A DNA stretch of 61,415 nt, taken from NCBI GenBank assembly GCA_905234855.1, contig CAJOIU010000017.1, positions 1 through 61,415 of the forward strand. The letters run 5' to 3'. How positions within the stretch are numbered: the stretch's first letter is position 1; the number at the start of each line of letters is the position of its first letter. The notes under the pieces were generated by a model. That model worked only from the letters and a program-made list of their open reading frames with translations. It did no database searches and was not told where the DNA came from. A program made the position numbers and the translations under genes. Positions 22,573 through 30,088 of this stretch are shown piece after piece. Source of the DNA: an uncultured Oscillospiraceae bacterium. Lineage in GTDB: Bacteria; Bacillota; Clostridia; Oscillospirales; Oscillospiraceae.

Positions 22573-22647
22573 GCGGGCGTAGCACAACGGCTAGTGCACC
22601 AGCCTTCCAAGCTGGGGACGTGGGTTCGATTCCCATCGCCCGCTCCA
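22573..22647 (+). tRNA. tRNA-Gly(TCC)
   Basis: The acceptor GCGGGCG pairs with CGCCCGC, and the anticodon loop CTTCCAA carries TCC. The T arm reads GTGGGTTCGATTCCCAT, and the 3' CCA is encoded. First of a five-tRNA cluster. Confidence 0.96.
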
Positions 22648-22677
22648 GCCAGAGCGCCGGACATGCTCACCACATAT

Positions 22678-22754
22678 GCGCCAGTAGCTCAGGTGGATAG
22701 AGCAACTGCCTTCTAAGCAGTAGGCCGGGGGTTCGAGTCCCTCCTGGCGTGCCA
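22678..22754 (+). tRNA. tRNA-Arg(TCT)
   Basis: The acceptor GCGCCAG pairs with CTGGCGT (one G-U). The anticodon loop CTTCTAA carries TCT. The T loop GTTCGAGTC and the 3' GCCA are encoded. Confidence 0.96.
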
Positions 22755-22770
22755 ATTTAATACGAAATAT

Positions 22771-22848
<78 letters not shown>

Positions 22849-22901
22849 TTTTTATTCCATATCGCGCTCTGCGCGTTATGATCTCGGATGGCGGCATCCG
22901 T

Positions 22902-22975
22902 AGGGATGTAGTGTAAAGGTAACACACCGGACTTTGACTCCGATATAGTGGGTTCGAATCCCGCCATCCCTGCCA
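22902..22975 (+). tRNA. tRNA-Gln(TTG)
   Basis: The acceptor AGGGATG pairs with CATCCCT, and the anticodon loop CTTTGAC carries TTG. The T arm GTGGGTTCGAATCCCGC and the 3' GCCA are encoded. Confidence 0.95.
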
Positions 22976-22978
22976 TTT

Positions 22979-23054
22979 GACTTGGTAGCTCAGCAGGCAG
23001 AGCAACTGCCTTTTAAGCAGTGGGTCCGGGGTTCGAATCCCCGCCAGGTCACCA
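22979..23054 (+). tRNA. tRNA-Lys(TTT)
   Basis: The acceptor GACTTGG pairs with CCAGGTC, and the anticodon loop CTTTTAA carries TTT. The T arm CGGGGTTCGAATCCCCG and the 3' ACCA are encoded. Only three bases separate it from tRNA-Gln. Confidence 0.96.
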
Positions 23055-23140: not shown

Positions 23141-23566
23141 TTACTGTGCTTTCTTGAGCGCGTTCACATCGCGGGAAAGGCGCTTTACGATCGCCTCCAG
23201 CGTAGATATCCGGCTGTTTGCGATCTCCATATCCTCCGAGGTCGGCATTCGGTCGATCTTCTTATTGATTGCGTCGATGCCCTCGGCAAGGATCTGGAAT
23301 TTTGGATCGATATAGGATTCGAGGATAACACGCATGTTATGGGCGCTCTCATCCAGCACTCTGCGTTCGGAGGCGCTGATCTTGGCGTCCATCTGCTCGG
23401 AGAGGCGCTGCTCGGAGGCGCTGATCTTAGCGTCCATCTGCTCGGAGAGGCGCTGCTCGGAGGCGCTGATCTTGGCGTCCATCTGCTCGGAGAGTCGCTG
23501 CTCGGAGGCGCTGATCTCACGGTGCATCAAATCGGCGATGGCATGAAGGTCTTTTTCATCCAGCAT
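23141..23566 (-). CDS. Small coiled-coil protein with 15-residue tandem repeats
   Basis: The 141-residue protein is soluble and almost wholly helical. After a short start (MLDEKDLHAIADLMHREI) it contains about three and a half copies of a 15-residue unit, ISASEQRLSEQMDAK, whose hydrophobic spacing suggests a coiled coil. The second half (MRVILESYIDPKFQILAEGI and STLEAIVKRLSRDVNALKKA) continues the helix. No known function is recognised. It has its own promoter inside the end of the upstream isomerase gene, so it may be transcribed apart from the sugar operon. An AAGGAGGGATCG site precedes the start. Confidence 0.82.
   Translation of the reverse strand: MLDEKDLHAIADLMHREISASEQRLSEQMDAKISASEQRLSEQMDAKISASEQRLSEQMDAKISASERRVLDESAHNMRVILESYIDPKFQILAEGIDAINKKIDRMPTSEDMEIANSRISTLEAIVKRLSRDVNALKKAQ
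23376..23510. repeat. Three tandem 45-bp coding repeats
   Basis: Units at 23376, 23421 and 23466 differ by only one or two bases, and a partial fourth follows from 23511. They encode the 15-residue coiled-coil unit. The near identity points to recent expansion. Confidence 0.93.
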
Positions 23567-23593: not shown

Positions 23594-23622
23594 ATTATAC
23601 GGAATCGCCGCGGGCTTGTCAA
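23594..23622 (-). promoter_or_regulatory. Promoter of the coiled-coil gene
   Basis: On the minus strand TTGACA (23622-23617) and TATAAT (23599-23594), both perfect, are 17 bases apart. The -35 overlaps the stop codon of the isomerase gene. Confidence 0.85.
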
Positions 23623-24959
23623 CCGCGGGGGATGTTCAGCATATCCGCGAGGATGGACAGCTCCTCGGCGACATCGCCGTAGACGACGGCGTAATGCGGC
23701 TCCCAGCCGTCCCGCACCGTGCGGCGGACAAGCTCCTCCGCGCTGCGATCGGCGCGGAAAACAAGGGAGGTGCCGTAAAACTGCTGTGGGCGGTCAAGGA
23801 TCTCGCCGGGTTCGATGAGGAAGCGGAAGCCGCCCTCCGTCGTGCGGCCGACGCGGAAGATCACGGCGCGGCTTGCGGGGCGGCAGCCGAATTCCAGCGT
23901 GGGGCCGATGTGCCGGTTGCAGTGCTCGCCGACACAGGCGCCGGTGTCCTCCCGGGCGAGAGAGCAGGCGGCGGTGCCGCAATGCCAGAAGGTGATCGTA
24001 TTCCCGCTCTCGCTGAGGGATACGGGATCGCCGAAAAAGGCCGGGCGGCCGCTGAGCTTCTGGCCGATGTACATCGAAAGCGCGCCGTAGACGTCCGCCT
24101 CGCAGGCGGCGGCCACGCCGAGGTCGTTCAGAATGCCGAGAACGGCGCAGACCGGCGTGCCGAAGGCCGTGAAGAAATCCGGCCAGCAGCGGGAGGCCAG
24201 CGCGCCGATCCCGTTTTCCCGCACATAATCGGCATACGCCTTGTAAAGCCGCGCGAAATCCCGGCGGTTTTTCTCCGGCGTTTCGTCGAGGCCGGTCATA
24301 CGACCGCACGCGTCCTGCAGGAAGCTCTCGCAATCCGCGTCGGAAAAGCTTCTGGCGCGGTCGATGAGCTCCCGCGCCTCGATGGAGGTGAGGCGCACGC
24401 CGAAGGCCTTGAGCAGATCGAGATCGAGGGCGCGGCCAAAGCCGAAGCCCTGCGGCGTATGGCCGACGGCGGCGAGGTTCAGATGCGAAAGCTCCCATTT
24501 CAGCTCCGCCGCCCGCAGACACGCGGTGACAGTCTTCCGCACGGCATCCTCGGCGGGGGCGCCATAGACGAAGGTAAACGGCTCCGCGCGGAGCTGCCGG
24601 ATAGCGTTCGCGGCGGAATACGCCCCCGTGAGGGAATTGAGGCGCAGCCGTCCGCCGTCGATCACCGGCTCCCGCAGCGTCCAGAGAAGGATCGGCGCGT
24701 TGGGGCAGCGGCGCAGCACCTCGCCGGCATAGGCGGCGTTGGCAAAGGTGGCGTTCTGCAGGATGATGAGATCGGGGTCGACCGTATCGAGGAATGCCTC
24801 CAGCGCCTCCACGGACAGGAGGATATCCTCCGGCGCGGCGACGTGGGGGCTTACCGAGCGGAGCAGGGCGAGGGAGTCGGAAAAAGCCTGCCGCGCGCTT
24901 TCCAGATGGAAGGTCGGCACGCCGATGGGGATGTACGCCGCCTGAAACGCTTTTTTCAT
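23619..24959 (-). CDS. L-fucose/arabinose isomerase-like protein, probable sulfoquinovose isomerase
   Basis: The 446-residue protein has the two-part fold of fucose/arabinose isomerases. An N-terminal region holds DTVDPDLIILQNATFANAAY, and a C-terminal part carries metal ligands in ACEADVYGALSMYI (Glu, Asp) and TITFWHCGTAACSL (His). Such enzymes interconvert aldose and ketose sugars on a divalent metal. In sulfo-TAL gene sets a member of this family converts sulfoquinovose to 6-deoxy-6-sulfofructose; the operon context assigns that role here. It overlaps the reductase by four bases (ATGA) and is the last gene of the five-gene operon. The family is confident and the substrate is inferred. Confidence 0.82.
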   Translation of the reverse strand: MKKAFQAAYIPIGVPTFHLESARQAFSDSLALLRSVSPHVAAPEDILLSVEALEAFLDTVDPDLIILQNATFANAAYAGEVLRRCPNAPILLWTLREPVIDGGRLRLNSLTGAYSAANAIRQLRAEPFTFVYGAPAEDAVRKTVTACLRAAELKWELSHLNLAAVGHTPQGFGFGRALDLDLLKAFGVRLTSIEARELIDRARSFSDADCESFLQDACGRMTGLDETPEKNRRDFARLYKAYADYVRENGIGALASRCWPDFFTAFGTPVCAVLGILNDLGVAAACEADVYGALSMYIGQKLSGRPAFFGDPVSLSESGNTITFWHCGTAACSLAREDTGACVGEHCNRHIGPTLEFGCRPASRAVIFRVGRTTEGGFRFLIEPGEILDRPQQFYGTSLVFRADRSAEELVRRTVRDGWEPHYAVVYGDVAEELSILADMLNIPRG

Positions 24960-25831
24960 GCCTCCGCCTCCGCGTGCTGCCCGCGCACGACCTTCGCCGT
25001 GGCGCAGAAATCCTCGTCCCCGAGGCCGAGGGTCATGGCCTCGTCATAGACGCGCAGGGCGTTTTCCTCGCCGGGCATGGCTATGCCCGCCTCCCGGGCG
25101 AGGTTTACGCAGATGCCGACGTCCTTGTGCATGTTTTTCACGGAAAACGCCGTGGTATAGTCCTCCGCCGCAATGGCGGCTTTTTTCGTGTCGAGATACA
25201 TGTTCTGCCCGCCGCCGTAGGAAATGGCCTCGGCGAAGGTGAGGATATCGATGCCGTTTTTCGCGGCGAGGGTCGCCGTCTCGTTCACACCGTTCTGGAT
25301 CTGCGATACGAGGGCGTTGTGGCAGATCTTCATAACGAGGCCTTTGCCGTTATCGCCCATGCGGAGGATGTTCGATCCCATGCAGCGCAGGATGGGCAGC
25401 GCCCGCTCGAAGGCCGCCTCCGGCCCGCCGACATAGATGCCCAGCGTCCCGGCGACGGCGGCGGGGCGGCTCTTCACCACCGGCGCGTCGATAAATTCCG
25501 CGCCCCGCGTGCGGACGAGCGATGCCAGCTCCACCGAAACGGACGGCTCGATGGTGCTCATATCGATACAGAGCTTCGTTTCGTCCAGCGCGGGCAGGAT
25601 GGATTCATACACCGCGCGGGAATCCGCCGCGGTGGGTACCATGGTGATGAAGATATCCGCCTGCCCGGCGACCTCCCGGGCGCTGCCGCAGACCACCGCG
25701 CCCATGGCGGCCAGAGGCTCCGCCTTCGCGGGGGTGCGGTTATAGACATAGACCGCGGCGCCGGATTTCTTGAGAATATTTTCGCACATGGGCGCGCCCA
25801 TGATGCCGAGGCCGACAAATCCGATATTCAT
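24956..25831 (-). CDS. Beta-hydroxyacid dehydrogenase-type reductase, probable 3-sulfolactaldehyde reductase
   Basis: The 291-residue protein is a 6-phosphogluconate/3-hydroxyisobutyrate dehydrogenase homologue. It has the nucleotide fold GFVGLGIMGAPMCENILKKS, the catalytic lysine in GLVMKICHNALVSQ and an intact C-terminal helical domain. In carboxylate-acting relatives the substrate loop after the DAPV motif is Ser-Gly-Gly; here it is DAPVVKSRPAA, with two basic residues and no Gly pair. The E. coli sulfolactaldehyde reductase YihU also has a basic residue there. It would reduce sulfolactaldehyde to 2,3-dihydroxypropane-1-sulfonate and regenerate NAD. It lies four bases after the transaldolase gene. 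Confidence 0.82.
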   Translation of the reverse strand: MNIGFVGLGIMGAPMCENILKKSGAAVYVYNRTPAKAEPLAAMGAVVCGSAREVAGQADIFITMVPTAADSRAVYESILPALDETKLCIDMSTIEPSVSVELASLVRTRGAEFIDAPVVKSRPAAVAGTLGIYVGGPEAAFERALPILRCMGSNILRMGDNGKGLVMKICHNALVSQIQNGVNETATLAAKNGIDILTFAEAISYGGGQNMYLDTKKAAIAAEDYTTAFSVKNMHKDVGICVNLAREAGIAMPGEENALRVYDEAMTLGLGDEDFCATAKVVRGQHAEAEA

Positions 25832-25835
25832 GCCG

Positions 25836-26522
25836 TCAGCCCTCCGCGGTGTGATCCCATGCGTCGGTGAAGGTGCCGATGCCCTGCGTGGTATAGGCGT
25901 GGCGCATACTGTCTTTATAAACGTCCAGCCCCGCGGTCACGATATCCGCCCCGGCCACGGCGCAGTCCACGATCTGCTTCGGCGTGCGGACGGCGGCGCA
26001 GATGATCTCCGTTTTGCCGTACCAGCCGTAGTTTTTATAGATCTCCACGATATCGCGGATATATCGGCGGCAGTCCTCGCCGTTTGCCTCCTTCCAGCCG
26101 ATGAAGGGGGAGACGAATTTCGAGCCGTTTTTCGCCGGGAGAATGGCCTGCGCGGGGGAGAAGATGAGGGTCACGTTCGTGCGGATGCCCTCGCGCTCGA
26201 GCTGCCGCGCGGCGGTGATGCCGTCGGGCGTGGCAGGGATCTTGATGACGAAGTTTTCGCTGATGGCGGCGATCCTCCGCGCCGCCGCGATCATCTCCGG
26301 CGCGGCCTCGATATGGGGATCGATCTCCACCGAGACGGGGAAGCGCTCGCAGCCGGAAAGACCCTCGGCCTTCACCCAGTCCGCGATATCGCGGACGGCG
26401 GTGAGGAAGGGCTTGCCGCTGAGCATGATATGGCGGGGATTCGTGGTCACGCCGTCGATGCCGAAGGTGCTGTGTGCCTGCGCGATCTCATCGAGCTTCG
26501 CGCTGTCGAGAAAGTATTTCAT
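25836..26522 (-). CDS. Small transaldolase/fructose-6-phosphate aldolase family protein, probable sulfofructose transaldolase
   Basis: The 228-residue protein (start at 26522 after GAGAGGA) is of the short TalC/FSA type. FGIDGVTTNPRHIM is the entry motif, NFVIKIPATPDG carries the Schiff-base lysine, and TNVTLIFSPAQAI and AGADIVTAGLDVY complete the barrel. FSA-type enzymes cleave or transfer a dihydroxyacetone unit. In the sulfo-TAL pathway the unit is moved from 6-deoxy-6-sulfofructose to glyceraldehyde-3-phosphate, giving fructose-6-phosphate and sulfolactaldehyde. The assignment to sulfosugar comes from the operon; the fold is clear from sequence. Confidence 0.85.
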   Translation of the reverse strand: MKYFLDSAKLDEIAQAHSTFGIDGVTTNPRHIMLSGKPFLTAVRDIADWVKAEGLSGCERFPVSVEIDPHIEAAPEMIAAARRIAAISENFVIKIPATPDGITAARQLEREGIRTNVTLIFSPAQAILPAKNGSKFVSPFIGWKEANGEDCRRYIRDIVEIYKNYGWYGKTEIICAAVRTPKQIVDCAVAGADIVTAGLDVYKDSMRHAYTTQGIGTFTDAWDHTAEG

Positions 26523-26535
26523 GTGCAGTGTCCTC

Positions 26536-28032
26536 TCACTTTTTATTGGATAGCTTGGATGCGTTCTCGGCGTCCCAGAGCCGGTCATAGGAGAAGCCGG
26601 TGACGGTCTCGCATACGGCGATCTCCTCCGGCGTGATGACGGAATCATCCTCGCCGCGGCGGCGGGCGCCCTCCCGGCGGATGATCTCAAATTCGCGCTT
26701 GCCCATGGGATAGCGGATCACGAAATACAGCGTGATCGCCAGCAGCACGAGCTGCGAAAAGACATAGACATAAGCGATGCCGCTCTGCACCGGGGCGGCC
26801 TGCCGCAGACCCTGACTGGCGGCGATCTCGTCGTAGCCTACCATGGCCAGCAGCACGCCGATGATGGCGGAGGAAAAGCCGGTGGCGATCTTCCGGATGA
26901 AGGTGGCCATGCCGGAGCAGGTGGCCGGGCGGCTGATGGAGGTGATGAGCTCGTCCACATCCGCCATATCCGCGAGGATCGCGTAGATGCTGGTGGAGCA
27001 GCCCGCCATGCCGAGGCCTATGATGAAGGAGAGCGCTAGGATCACGGTGAAATTCGCGCCCTCATGGGAGAAAAACAGCATGGCGAGGGTCGCCAGCATG
27101 CGGATCGGCGTGCCCACCAGCACCGGGAATTTTTTCGAGGTGCGCGCCATGATGGGAGCAAACAGGATCATGCCCAAAAACTGCGAGAGCAGGATGACGC
27201 CCATGAGCAGCGTGAAGTTGCCGCCGCCGTAGGCGTTCAGCACGTCGTCGATGTAATAAACCGCAAGGCCGGTCACGAAGTCCGCCGCGCCCTGACCAAA
27301 CACGAAAATGCCGATCAGAAGGCGGAAGGAGCGGCTTTTATACACGGTGAAGGCATGGATGAAGCTGTCCTTGAGGCCGATCTTCACGACGGGCTTTTTC
27401 CGTTCCCACGTCCCGATGAAGGTCAGCAGGATCGAGACGAGGAAGATCACCGCGAAAATGAGCGCTACGGTGAGATACTGCCCGGCGTTTGTGTTGTCCC
27501 GGATGAGGAGCGTCGGAACAAGGCCGGCGAGGATCGCGCCGAAGGAGGAGAAGATCATGCGGACGCTTGAGAACCTCGCCCGGGTCGTATAGTCCTCCAC
27601 CATATCCGGCAGCAGGCCGTTATACGGCACCATCACGATGGTGAAGCCCGTCGAGAACAGCATATACATGGCCACATAGAAGATATACTGTCCCGTCACG
27701 CCCGCCGAGTACAGCGGTATCCACATCAGCGCGAAGGTGATCGCGGAAATGATGCTGCCGATGAGGATATAAAACCGCTTCGGACCGAAGCGCGAGCGGG
27801 TGCGGTCGGCGATGTTGCCCATGACGGGGTCCGTCACCGCGTCCCAGATCTTGCCGATGAGCGGTATCGTTCCCGCCAGCGCCGTGGGCATGCCCAGCGC
27901 CTTGGTGAGAAAAACGGTGAAAAACGTACTGATGACGACAAAGGCGCCGCCGCCGTAGATGTCCGCGAAGCCATAGGAGAACTTGGCCCATGCGCTGTTT
28001 TCCCGCGGGGTGTTCCTCGGATTCTTTCTCAT
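26536..28032 (-). CDS. GPH-family sugar:cation symporter, probable sulfoquinovoside importer
   Basis: The 498-residue protein (start at 28032 after AGGTAGAGAG) has about 12 hydrophobic segments. The glycoside-pentoside-hexuronide signature is present: LIGKIWDAVTDPVMGNIADR then TRSRFGPKRFYIL. It overlaps the upstream glycosidase by four bases and precedes the transaldolase gene by 13. YihO and YihP of the E. coli sulfoquinovose locus are of this family, so it is the likely importer of sulfoquinovose or its glycerol glycoside. Substrate is inferred from neighbours. Confidence 0.85.
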   Translation of the reverse strand: MRKNPRNTPRENSAWAKFSYGFADIYGGGAFVVISTFFTVFLTKALGMPTALAGTIPLIGKIWDAVTDPVMGNIADRTRSRFGPKRFYILIGSIISAITFALMWIPLYSAGVTGQYIFYVAMYMLFSTGFTIVMVPYNGLLPDMVEDYTTRARFSSVRMIFSSFGAILAGLVPTLLIRDNTNAGQYLTVALIFAVIFLVSILLTFIGTWERKKPVVKIGLKDSFIHAFTVYKSRSFRLLIGIFVFGQGAADFVTGLAVYYIDDVLNAYGGGNFTLLMGVILLSQFLGMILFAPIMARTSKKFPVLVGTPIRMLATLAMLFFSHEGANFTVILALSFIIGLGMAGCSTSIYAILADMADVDELITSISRPATCSGMATFIRKIATGFSSAIIGVLLAMVGYDEIAASQGLRQAAPVQSGIAYVYVFSQLVLLAITLYFVIRYPMGKREFEIIRREGARRRGEDDSVITPEEIAVCETVTGFSYDRLWDAENASKLSNKK

Positions 28033-30008
28033 CTCTCTACCTGCCCTTTCATATTGATCAAAAGCGAATACCATGAGCTGGAGCTACGGATGAATACCGG
28101 GGGGCGTCCAAGGGGCGCTTCGATCTCGTGAACGCCGCCGCCGTAAGAAACGCCGGTGAATAGCTGCTTCCAATCGTCCTGCGGCAGATATACCGTCCTG
28201 CCTCGCGCGCTCTCCCGAAGGACGGGGGCGACGAGGATATCCCGCCCCAGAAGATATTCGGTTTTCTCGCTGTATGCCGCCGGCTCGTCGTAGTGGTAAA
28301 ACAGCGGGCGCGTCATGGGAATGCCGTCCTCGACAGCCTCCTGCGCCAGCGCCTGCAGATAGGGCCCCAGCGCCGCGTGCCATCCGGCTGCTTTCGCAAG
28401 CTGGGCAAGAAGCTCGGCGTCCCCGTCGAACTGGACGTTGTTCACGGGCTGATTGCCCTCATGGAAGCGAAGCAGGGGGGAGAAGGCGTTCATCTCCTCC
28501 CAGCGCAGAAGCAGCTCCTTCGAGCGCTTCATATGCATCATGGTGGTGTAGCCGCCCGTATCGGAATGGGCGGCGGGACAGCCGCTCATGGCCAGCGAGA
28601 GCATGGCGGGGATCACGGAGGGCAGACCGTCGTCCGCCGACCAGTCCACATGCTGATCGCCTGTCCAAAGCATGGGCGAGACCGCGGCGGTGCCGGAGTA
28701 GCCTGCGCGGGTGAAGAAAAACGCCTCGTCCTGCGCGCCGGCCTCCTCGATTGCCTCGCGGTTGAGCCGCGCCCACAGCACCGGCCAGCGGTTATGGACG
28801 AGCGCCGCGTCCTCGCCGCTGTGCAGCACCGCGTCCACGGGGAGATACTCGCCGAAATCCGCCATCCAGCCGGAAAGACCGATGCCGAGCAGATTCGTTT
28901 TTATGATATCCTTATACCACGCATAGGCTTCGGGGTTCGTGAAGTCTACCATGGCGGCGGGGAAGGTGGTGATGGTGACGAGATAATCCCCGCCGTCTCT
29001 GTTTTTCACGCAATAGCCTCGCTCCGCGGCGGTTTGATACAGCGCGCCCTCCAGCGCGAGGAAGGGATTTATGTAGCCGAGGAACCGCACGCCCTGCGCC
29101 TTCCAAGCGGGGATGCGCTCATCCAGCGCCGGATACAGCGTTTGATCCCATGCCCAGTTCCACATGACCTGATAGCCGAAGCCCGTGCGTCGGCAGCCGC
29201 ACCAGTCCTGCGACCATACGCCGCAGACCTTCGCTCCGGCCGCCCGCGCCGCCTTGAGCTTTTTCTCCACCGCCTCCGTGCCGCCCTGCACGGCGAGGAT
29301 CGCGCCGTCATAGATCCAGTCCGGCAGCGAGGGAGGCCGCCCGATCAGCGCCGAGAGGCGGCGGGATACCTCTTCAAAGCTCCCGCACCGCTCGTAATAC
29401 AGCACCGGCGGCTCTTGGAAAACCAGCGCCGTCCGATCCGGCGTGCGGAAATCGAATTCCGCGTACGCGGCGGTTTCGGCGTGGATATAATATTTCCCGC
29501 TGGAGACGAAGGTGGGCTGGGCGTGATAGGATTCGTACCGCCCGAAGGGAAGAATGCGATCCGGCCTGCGGCCGAAAAGCTTCTCGCGGATGAGCTTTCC
29601 GCCGATCCGCTTGGCGTTCTGATGCTCCGCCACCCAGATGCGCACCCGCTCGCCCTTGAGGTCGAGGGTGGAATATACCTCGCCGCAGCCGTAGATATGC
29701 TCCGCCGGATCGGCGGGAAAGCAGAGCCGGAAGCGGTTCCACGGCGCGTCCTCCGGCAAAGCGAGGGAGAGCCGAAGCCTGCCGTCGGCCTCCTCGATGC
29801 GCAGACCGATCCGCCCGGAAAGCGAGGGGTGGCCAAACCACAGCATGACCGCGCCGTCCGTCTCCTCCCGCCCCTCCGGGCGCAGATCGAGGCGGCGGGC
29901 GATCCGCTGGCGGTAACGGAAGCTGCCGCGCTGCATGGTAAAACGGCTTTCCCCGGCGCCGACGGACAGCGACATACCCTCGAAAAAGCCCAGCTCCGAT
30001 GCCTGCAT
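28029..30008 (-). CDS. Glycoside hydrolase family 31, sulfoquinovosidase-like
   Basis: The 659-residue protein (start at 30008 after GGGGAGGG) resembles E. coli sulfoquinovosidase YihQ over its length. The nucleophile lies in SGWMADFGEYLP, the acid/base in TGDQHVDWSADDG, and GGYTTMMHMKRSKELLLRW follows. By manual alignment to YihQ, four of five sulfonate-pocket positions are kept (Gln262 in AVQGGTE, Gln288 in SQDWCG, Trp304 in VMWNW, Tyr508 in GGYTT), but the Arg301 position is Gln (GFGYQVMW). It has no signal peptide, so substrates are hydrolysed after import. It is the first gene of the operon. A non-sulfonated alpha-glucoside is the main alternative substrate. Confidence 0.85.
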   Translation of the reverse strand: MQASELGFFEGMSLSVGAGESRFTMQRGSFRYRQRIARRLDLRPEGREETDGAVMLWFGHPSLSGRIGLRIEEADGRLRLSLALPEDAPWNRFRLCFPADPAEHIYGCGEVYSTLDLKGERVRIWVAEHQNAKRIGGKLIREKLFGRRPDRILPFGRYESYHAQPTFVSSGKYYIHAETAAYAEFDFRTPDRTALVFQEPPVLYYERCGSFEEVSRRLSALIGRPPSLPDWIYDGAILAVQGGTEAVEKKLKAARAAGAKVCGVWSQDWCGCRRTGFGYQVMWNWAWDQTLYPALDERIPAWKAQGVRFLGYINPFLALEGALYQTAAERGYCVKNRDGGDYLVTITTFPAAMVDFTNPEAYAWYKDIIKTNLLGIGLSGWMADFGEYLPVDAVLHSGEDAALVHNRWPVLWARLNREAIEEAGAQDEAFFFTRAGYSGTAAVSPMLWTGDQHVDWSADDGLPSVIPAMLSLAMSGCPAAHSDTGGYTTMMHMKRSKELLLRWEEMNAFSPLLRFHEGNQPVNNVQFDGDAELLAQLAKAAGWHAALGPYLQALAQEAVEDGIPMTRPLFYHYDEPAAYSEKTEYLLGRDILVAPVLRESARGRTVYLPQDDWKQLFTGVSYGGGVHEIEAPLGRPPVFIRSSSSWYSLLINMKGQVER

Positions 30009-30036: not shown

Positions 30037-30088
30037 TGACAACTCTCTGACACTTTTGTATTATACCGTATTTTTTTGTCAAGGTAAA
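30037..30088 (-). promoter_or_regulatory. Promoter region and possible operator of the sulfoquinovose operon
   Basis: On the minus strand a perfect -10 TATAAT (30065-30060) has a poor -35, TTTACC (30088-30083), at 17 bases. Just beyond the expected start of transcription, the minus-strand sequence TGTCA occurs twice (complement of 30048-30052 and 30037-30041), spaced one DNA turn (11 bases). A weak -35 and a repeat at +1 fit a regulated promoter. No regulator gene is nearby. Confidence 0.45.

Follow-up and report, generated by a model that had tools for sequence, protein, structure and literature searches.

A predicted sulfoquinovose operon with a glutamine-type YihQ-family glycosidase in an uncultured Oscillospiraceae bacterium

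Results

Five genes on the minus strand

The stretch of DNA studied here, below called the window, is the whole 61,415-nucleotide contig CAJOIU010000017.1 (C17) of an uncultured Oscillospiraceae bacterium (assembly GCA_905234855.1), whose 1.79-Mb genome lies in 44 contigs and is 83% complete. Between positions 23619 and 30008 five tightly packed genes follow each other on the minus strand, see Table 1. They encode a GH31 glycosidase, a sugar symporter, a transaldolase, a reductase and a sugar isomerase, a set that probably makes up a sulfoglycolytic transaldolase (sulfo-TAL) pathway for sulfoquinovose (SQ), a sulfur-containing sugar found in plant leaves, the glycosidase being of an altered type.

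An earlier sequence-only reading had listed the same families in overlapping or closely spaced genes. This is borne out: none of the open reading frames (ORFs) has an internal stop, and the family matches lie far beyond chance. The host had been called spore-forming, with which a Spo0A_C match in the genome is consistent. Further, no regulator or sulfonate exporter had been seen nearby, and this holds for the ORFs between 18000 and 36000, read by eye; in many relatives regulator and exporter genes lie within the cluster.

Table 1. Features of the operon in the window.
Feature	Position	Strand	Remark
GH31 glycosidase, YihQ family, Gln-type	28029..30008	-	659 aa from ATG
GPH-family (MFS_2) sugar symporter, presumed importer of SQ or its glycoside	26536..28074	-	
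FSA-type transaldolase (FSA, fructose-6-phosphate aldolase), sulfofructose type	25836..26522	-	228 aa
NAD(P)-dependent 3-hydroxyacid-dehydrogenase-family reductase, predicted sulfolactaldehyde reductase (YihU/SftR role)	24956..25831	-	291 aa
Metal-dependent sugar isomerase, predicted SQ isomerase (SftI/SqvD)	23619..24959	-	446 aa
Promoter-like site TTTACC-17-TATAAT	30060..30088	-	about 50 bases upstream of the GH31 start codon

In the order of transcription the GH31 and symporter genes overlap, gaps of 13 and 4 bases follow, and the reductase and isomerase genes overlap by 4 bases. The start of the symporter is uncertain: a later ATG at 28032 is plausibly the true one, leaving a 4-base overlap with the GH31 gene. 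All five genes recur in the same order in a congener (G023), with identities of 69% (GH31), 86% (symporter), 90% (transaldolase), 77% (reductase) and 73% (isomerase). The overlaps, the gaps of 4-13 bases and the shared order give the linkage expected of a sulfo-TAL unit.

The glycosidase is YihQ-like but carries glutamine for arginine

The GH31 protein matches the YihQ family model PRK10426, which is named alpha-glucosidase, with 768 bits (cut-off 553), and it alone of the five proteins passes its curated NCBIfam cut-off. Among solved structures its best sequence matches are YihQ (640 bits) and 8r56 (629 bits). The AlphaFold model has a pLDDT of 92, and the first 23 Foldseek rows are all chains of solved sulfoquinovosidases (SQases), at TM 0.90-0.93. 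By family model and by fold the protein thus belongs with YihQ.

For the comparison of residues four solved SQases were aligned: YihQ (5aed, also 5oht), BmSQase (8r56), SftG of Eubacterium rectale (6pnr) and the Agrobacterium tumefaciens enzyme (5ohy), which show 40-46% identity to the window protein in the fold alignment. Six distinct solved sequences reach the threshold, and the second A. tumefaciens entry lies outside this comparison. The nucleophile Asp384 and the acid/base Asp451 align with D405 and D472 of YihQ, and the pocket residues are Gln241, Gln267, Gln280, Trp283 and Tyr487. Both catalytic aspartates and the Q/Q/W/Y pocket set are common to the window protein and the solved SQases, with the difference that the A. 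tumefaciens enzyme has Lys/Glu at the first two pocket positions, where the window protein has Gln/Gln.

Arg301 of YihQ, which we take to be the arginine that holds the sulfonate, is one of the five signature residues by which SQase specificity is judged. All four solved SQases have Arg at this position, where the window protein has Gln280. The claim that the enzyme is close to YihQ therefore stands for sequence and fold, where the best matches are all SQases, but not for this residue. As the arginine is absent, we file the enzyme as an altered type (Gln-type, as opposed to Arg-type) and not as a canonical YihQ.

Further differences from the solved SQases surround the active site. The YihQ motif FGEFYGG, which includes Glu369, is replaced by ITTFPAA, the stretch 125-150 is four residues longer, and His453 stands two residues after the acid/base. 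In the model, residues 132-145 form a helix bearing Lys138. A sequencing or assembly error at Gln280 was ruled out, since G023 and another 79 GH31 rows have the same Gln.

The Gln type is widespread and its changes are linked

A GH31 scan confirmed 572 relatives among the matches listed, of which the best 80 were kept, so that the sample is drawn towards the window. Together with loci of further genomes this gave 96 YihQ-like GH31 rows, 94 of them distinct (L156 equals L067, and L146 equals L068). At the YihQ 301 position 81 of the 96 rows have Gln and 15 have Arg. In a phylum sample that was not drawn towards the window, a close GH31 is found in six genomes other than its own out of 398; two are Gln-type and four Arg-type.

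The two types differ at several other positions. Position 348 is Thr in 76 of the 81 Gln rows (Val in 3, Ala in 1, Asp in 1) and Glu or Asp in all 15 Arg rows. PAA at 350-352 and Lys138 are each found in 79/81 Gln rows and 0/15 Arg rows, and the four-residue extension is seen in 79/81 Gln rows. At position 453 His is present in 78 of the 79 readable Gln rows, against none of the 15 Arg rows. Two loci, L090 and L096, have Gln and PAA without the long stretch, which indicates that it is Gln and PAA, not the long stretch, that go together in separate backgrounds. In a FastTree tree from which the columns around 280, 345-354 and 128-150 were left out, three changes between Gln and Arg are required, of which well-supported branches force at least two.

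The titles of 25 of the 80 loci contain Goat, Sheep, cattle, deer, Rumen or Lapin. According to the record titles, cultured carriers of the Gln type are Pseudobutyrivibrio ruminis DSM 9787 and Butyrivibrio sp. FCS014, MB2005 and AE2015. The Gln type also occurs, on a long branch, in an uncultured Acholeplasma (L180, Acholeplasmataceae). In a metagenome-assembled genome named Treponemataceae (L109) a Gln-type GH31 is accompanied by a transaldolase (72%) and a reductase (65%) that resemble those of Firmicutes, which suggests transfer or mis-binning. Another record, L156 (JAMPEQ010000002.1), is named Bacteroides sp.; its GH31 is identical to that of L067, from the order of the window, and the name looks wrong.

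The literature that we searched on sulfonate-site residues, with several primary papers outside the search, yielded no description, structure or assay of the Gln variant. We know of no assay of any Gln-type enzyme.

The transaldolase is of the sulfofructose type

The transaldolase matches PF00923 with 155 bits and the family TIGR00875 with 187 bits (cut-off 246). Its three best solved matches, at 273-278 bits, are all BmSF-TAL of Bacillus (Priestia) megaterium, namely 8bc3 and the near-identical 8bc4 and 8bc2 (8c4i is a further structure of this enzyme); the next solved relative reaches 170 bits. It is thus nearest to BmSF-TAL and away from fructose-6-phosphate aldolases. The two proteins are alike over the full length; two short insertions set them apart, and no functional difference is seen.

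The catalytic residues D6, E66 and K94 are kept, as is the WAR sulfonate motif (W143, A177 and R179, counted from the ATG), as it is described in section 3.4 of PMC11659671. Triad and motif together mark a sulfofructose-type transaldolase, as a sulfo-TAL pathway requires. Among 58 aligned transaldolase rows from related loci, the window included, WAR is kept in 56; the exceptions are a 41%-identical protein (L100) and the second row of L116.

A tree of 59 transaldolases contains 52 rows from Gln-type clusters, four from Arg-type clusters and three without a GH31 type. On this tree the GH31 type changes four times, every change being forced by starred branches, and 500 of 500 label shuffles give a number as low. 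The four Arg-type clusters do not group together but lie dispersed among the Gln-type ones. One of them, L194, has a GH31 that scores 1080 bits against the E. rectale SQase 6PNR, for which an assay is reported in a part of PMC11968277. The transaldolase of L194 lies in a starred set of six with P. ruminis and three Butyrivibrio rows, which are Gln-type, and that of the window shares one starred set with it; L194 is an E. rectale-like cluster. As the tree is not sorted by GH31 type, the simplest view is that SQ is the sugar supplied by either type.

Isomerase, reductase and symporter

The only NCBIfam match of the isomerase is SftI (NF048012; 387 bits, E 8e-116, cut-off 700), and in none of the 295 genomes sampled in the order is this cut-off reached. 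Three residues, Glu287, Asp311 and His422, are invariant in 26 aligned relatives; they are candidate metal ligands, chosen by the metal-ligand spacing of FucI. The model has a pLDDT of 92, and every one of the 41 Foldseek matches at E <= 0.001 is an arabinose or fucose isomerase (L-arabinose, D-arabinose and L-fucose), with query TM scores of 0.74-0.82 against 0.19 for the next row. The predicted fold thus agrees with the earlier naming as a fucose-isomerase-like protein. It also fits the role of SqvD, since SqvD is a FucI homologue according to a passage in PMC9594981.

The reductase matches PF03446 with 147 bits. It matches the NCBIfam model TIGR01692 (194 bits, cut-off 292), while the sulfolactaldehyde reductase model PRK15461 comes fourth (155 bits, cut-off 348), and the E. 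coli sulfolactaldehyde reductase 6sm7 ranks 16 among the solved structures matched. The substrate loop reads DAPVVKSRPAA; the 15 commonest loop types, covering 58 of 61 rows, all have DAPVVKS[KR]. Sulfolactaldehyde is the substrate predicted from the place of the gene in the operon. The symporter matches PF13347 (219 bits) and TIGR00792 (192 bits, cut-off 231).

Gene company in relatives

Isomerase matches at E <= 0.001 are found in 25 of 60 genomes of relatives, 35 of these genomes belonging to the genus and the window's own being included. Homologues with at least 60% identity over most of the length are found only in the window's own genome, in G022 (two copies) and in G023. G022 has four of the five genes on a contig starting within the symporter gene; on another of its contigs an isomerase (60%) is joined by a GH31 of the Arg type and a transketolase-like end piece. 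At E <= 1e-60 the transaldolase is present in 6 of 391 class genomes sampled, own included. Recurrence of this kind indicates a pathway that is distributed patchily and stays together as a unit. Among 196 matching records, none is a plasmid copy of the transaldolase with an identity of 60% or higher.

The content of the loci was counted for 74 named Gln-type loci. At least one of transaldolase, SftI-like isomerase and reductase is present in 63 of them and all three in 43; singly, the transaldolase is found in 49, the isomerase in 58 and the reductase in 56. DUF4867 occurs in 44, a ROK protein in 36 and TauE/SafE exporter genes in 28. The copies of DUF4867 in G022 and G023 lie outside the operon contigs. 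The one TauE of the window genome is on another contig; compared with two TauE proteins from the clusters, it gives no match at E <= 1e-12. In L154 (7449-9914) an 821-residue protein directly precedes the Gln-type GH31 gene; it has no Pfam match at E <= 0.001.

The Gln type is not confined to transaldolase clusters. Eight loci that belong to Erysipelotrichaceae by name or listed family (L123, L134, L135, L137, L138, L139, L141 and L150) have the Gln-type GH31, the isomerase and the reductase, and seven of them DUF4867; they lack the transaldolase and have a PfkB-family kinase instead (the Pfam run covered the L139 kinase). Judged by the kinase, these loci may follow a sulfoglycolytic Embden-Meyerhof-Parnas-like (sulfo-EMP-like) route. 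In a Lachnospiraceae locus, L140 (9965-21624), a Gln-type GH31 is found with a split transketolase (Pfam), a sulfofructose-type transaldolase (58%) and proteins similar to an RpiB-type isomerase and an Fe-alcohol dehydrogenase of G273; this cluster resembles the bifurcated Faecalicatena route. One GH31 type thus occurs with different downstream chemistries (transaldolase, transketolase, PfkB kinase) that share the entry from SQ to sulfofructose.

Four of the loci without any of the three markers are shorter than 7.5 kb. Among the marker-free loci, L146 has DUF4867, TauE, Fe-alcohol dehydrogenase and RpiB-type genes, and L180 has transketolase-like genes. A small Gln-type side clade (L149, L172 and L143), with the GH31 motif GCRNNTFGYQ, is without sulfoglycolytic markers, and a GPH symporter is close by in L172 and L143. 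This clade possibly has another specificity or scavenges glycosides.

Surroundings of the operon

The promoter-like site before the GH31 gene agrees with the consensus at 10 of 12 positions. Such matches are weak evidence, since the region has seven sites of this kind where shuffles give 2.3. At the end of the isomerase gene, on the same strand, lies a sigma-70-like promoter match without mismatches, which by its position belongs to the next gene. That gene (23141-23566, minus strand) encodes a 141-residue protein with a threefold repeat (LSEQMDAKISASEQR) that looks coiled-coil-like by eye.

Further downstream, on the plus strand, are five tRNA genes (Gly, Arg, His, Gln, Lys; 22573-23054), and the ORFs listed within this cluster are likely spurious. 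Upstream, genes in the opposite direction resemble polysaccharide export and tyrosine-kinase genes, by eye only. The GC of the operon is about 0.61-0.65 in 2-kb windows, near that of its surroundings. Both flanking anchors are matched in 35 of 35 genus genomes (E <= 0.001), in several via weak paralogue matches only. No empty site that would speak for a recent insertion of the operon could be read beside the tRNA cluster, as the strong anchor matches share one contig in the window's own genome alone.

Discussion

In our view the operon probably encodes the whole sulfo-TAL pathway for SQ, with an alternative, Gln-type SQase. The full sulfo-TAL set proposed by the sequence-only reading gains support from the transaldolase, nearest to BmSF-TAL and with WAR kept, from SftI as the sole NCBIfam match of the isomerase, and from the SQase matches of the GH31. 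Gene content, family identity, predicted folds, kept motifs and the residue switch with its spread were all seen directly. The searches against characterised enzymes that the sequence-only reading had recommended point to sulfoglycolysis for the transaldolase and the isomerase, while the reductase matches are not specific to sulfolactaldehyde. The outcome held to speak against SQ, with all best matches in neutral-sugar pathways, did not occur.

From this we infer substrate, product and the binding role of each residue. The symporter would import SQ or an SQ glycoside, from which the GH31 would free SQ. The isomerase would convert SQ to 6-deoxy-6-sulfofructose, and the transaldolase would transfer a three-carbon piece of it to glyceraldehyde-3-phosphate; the products would be sulfolactaldehyde and fructose-6-phosphate, which enters glycolysis. 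The reductase would reduce the sulfolactaldehyde to dihydroxypropanesulfonate, which presumably exits via a transporter outside the cluster. With Gln for Arg301 and the linked changes in active site and loop, the sulfonate or the rest of the glycoside is probably held differently.

Several observations weigh against this reading. Gln280 stands where every solved SQase compared has Arg, and the argument from the transaldolase tree is a small test, based on just four Arg-type rows. The isomerase misses the SftI cut-off by a wide margin, and in sequence YihU is more distant from the reductase than 3-hydroxyisobutyrate dehydrogenase (HIBADH) and tartronate-semialdehyde reductases are. A search of the 83%-complete window genome found no DUF4867 (SftX), a frequent member of such clusters. 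Further, 11 of the 74 Gln-type loci lack all three markers, among them L149 and L172, each flanked on both sides by about 10 kb, and L113, with flanks of 8-10 kb. That Gln is a mark of pathway loss was ruled out by the contents of the clusters and by the transaldolase tree.

The operon could handle SQ after uptake while the Gln-type GH31 opens some other SQ glycoside, such as intact or lyso sulfolipid or another conjugate, with its loops serving the aglycone. This is conceivable, though we rather doubt it. Linked changes are also found in the helix stretch 132-145 and at His453 beside the acid/base, and the combination of an Arg-type and a Gln-type GH31 in one cluster (L126) hints that they open different SQ glycosides; likewise G022 has an Arg-type GH31 and a second isomerase besides a window-type operon. 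However, the aglycone is not readable from sequence, and the R301 position, as we understand the YihQ structures, sits at the sulfonate and not at the aglycone, which counts against such a role. It is improbable that the same transaldolase logic serves here to break down a different 6-sulfonated or otherwise anionic sugar, such as sulfofucose or a sugar phosphonate. An isomerase score well under the SftI cut-off and a GH31 without the Arg of the solved SQases would fit this, but the transaldolase keeps WAR, and because the transaldolases of Gln- and Arg-type clusters interleave at short distances, the sulfo-sugar cleaved is most simply the same.

A neutral-sugar pathway of alpha-glucosidase, fucose-type isomerase and fructose-6-phosphate aldolase, similar to sulfo-TAL by descent only, is very hard to credit. 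The GH31, FSA and HIBADH families have many neutral-sugar members, and the change from Arg to Gln removes a positive charge; against this stand the TauE/SafE exporter genes in 28 of the 74 Gln-type loci. We have ruled such a pathway out, as the nearest relatives of the GH31, the transaldolase and the isomerase are all sulfoglycolytic, by wide margins.

The pathway alone is already known, and what is new is the altered and widespread GH31. As a tentative proposal, which may well prove wrong, the Gln-type GH31s could be a second functional class of SQases in rumen and gut Firmicutes, apparently passed to Treponemataceae, Coriobacteriales and mollicutes, with a sulfonate pocket rebuilt (Arg301/Glu369 to Gln/Thr, a new His, a Lys-bearing helix) for a different natural SQ glycoside. 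If many gut and rumen enzymes work without Arg301, the signature rule is too narrow. The Gln type would then be a natural system for studying how proteins hold a sulfonate without that arginine, and the variant is directly testable in cultured strains.

Surveys of SQ users, such as PMC13219744, lean on YihQ-type SQases. In the reference tree of PMC13219744, a long branch beside a Mariniplasma sequence takes up, depending on the primer pair, 64% of 1220 or 47.5% of 1548 amplicon variants of rumen yihQ, and genome-database matches assign most variants to Oscillospiraceae, Lachnospiraceae and Acutalibacteraceae. By a taxonomy look-up Mariniplasma is a member of the Acholeplasmataceae. As L180, of this family, is Gln-type and 25 of the 80 locus titles carry the words listed above, the long branch may contain the Gln type; our guess is that it does, and that the Gln type possibly makes up much of it. 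If the primer numbers given in PMC13219744 follow E. coli yihQ, residue 453 lies inside the amplicon and the published amplicons could be re-sorted.

Comparison with known systems

Sections of PMC12890257, PMC11489063, PMC11968277 and PMC12330013 describe the sulfo-TAL pathway from anaerobic Firmicutes. The closest known systems are the sulfo-TAL (sulfo-SFT) clusters of Agathobacter (Eubacterium) rectale (EUBREC_2585-2596), Enterococcus gilvus and Enterocloster clostridioformis. As far as these clusters are covered in parts of PMC11489063, PMC11968277 and PMC12330013, they share with the window the GH31, a sugar transporter, the sulfofructose transaldolase and, on the side of the window by prediction, an SftI-type isomerase and a YihU-type reductase. 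The window cluster differs by its Gln-type GH31 and by the fact that no DUF4867/SftX, TauE or regulator gene is seen in it. None of its five genes corresponds to the Hpf genes of E. gilvus.

A change analogous to that in the GH31 is described for GH188 enzymes in a portion of PMC11465081. In both cases a residue linked to sulfonate recognition has changed naturally inside sulfoglycolytic clusters. The difference, again as given in that portion of PMC11465081, is that GH188 is another, NAD-dependent enzyme family, in which the contact is made by a backbone amide.

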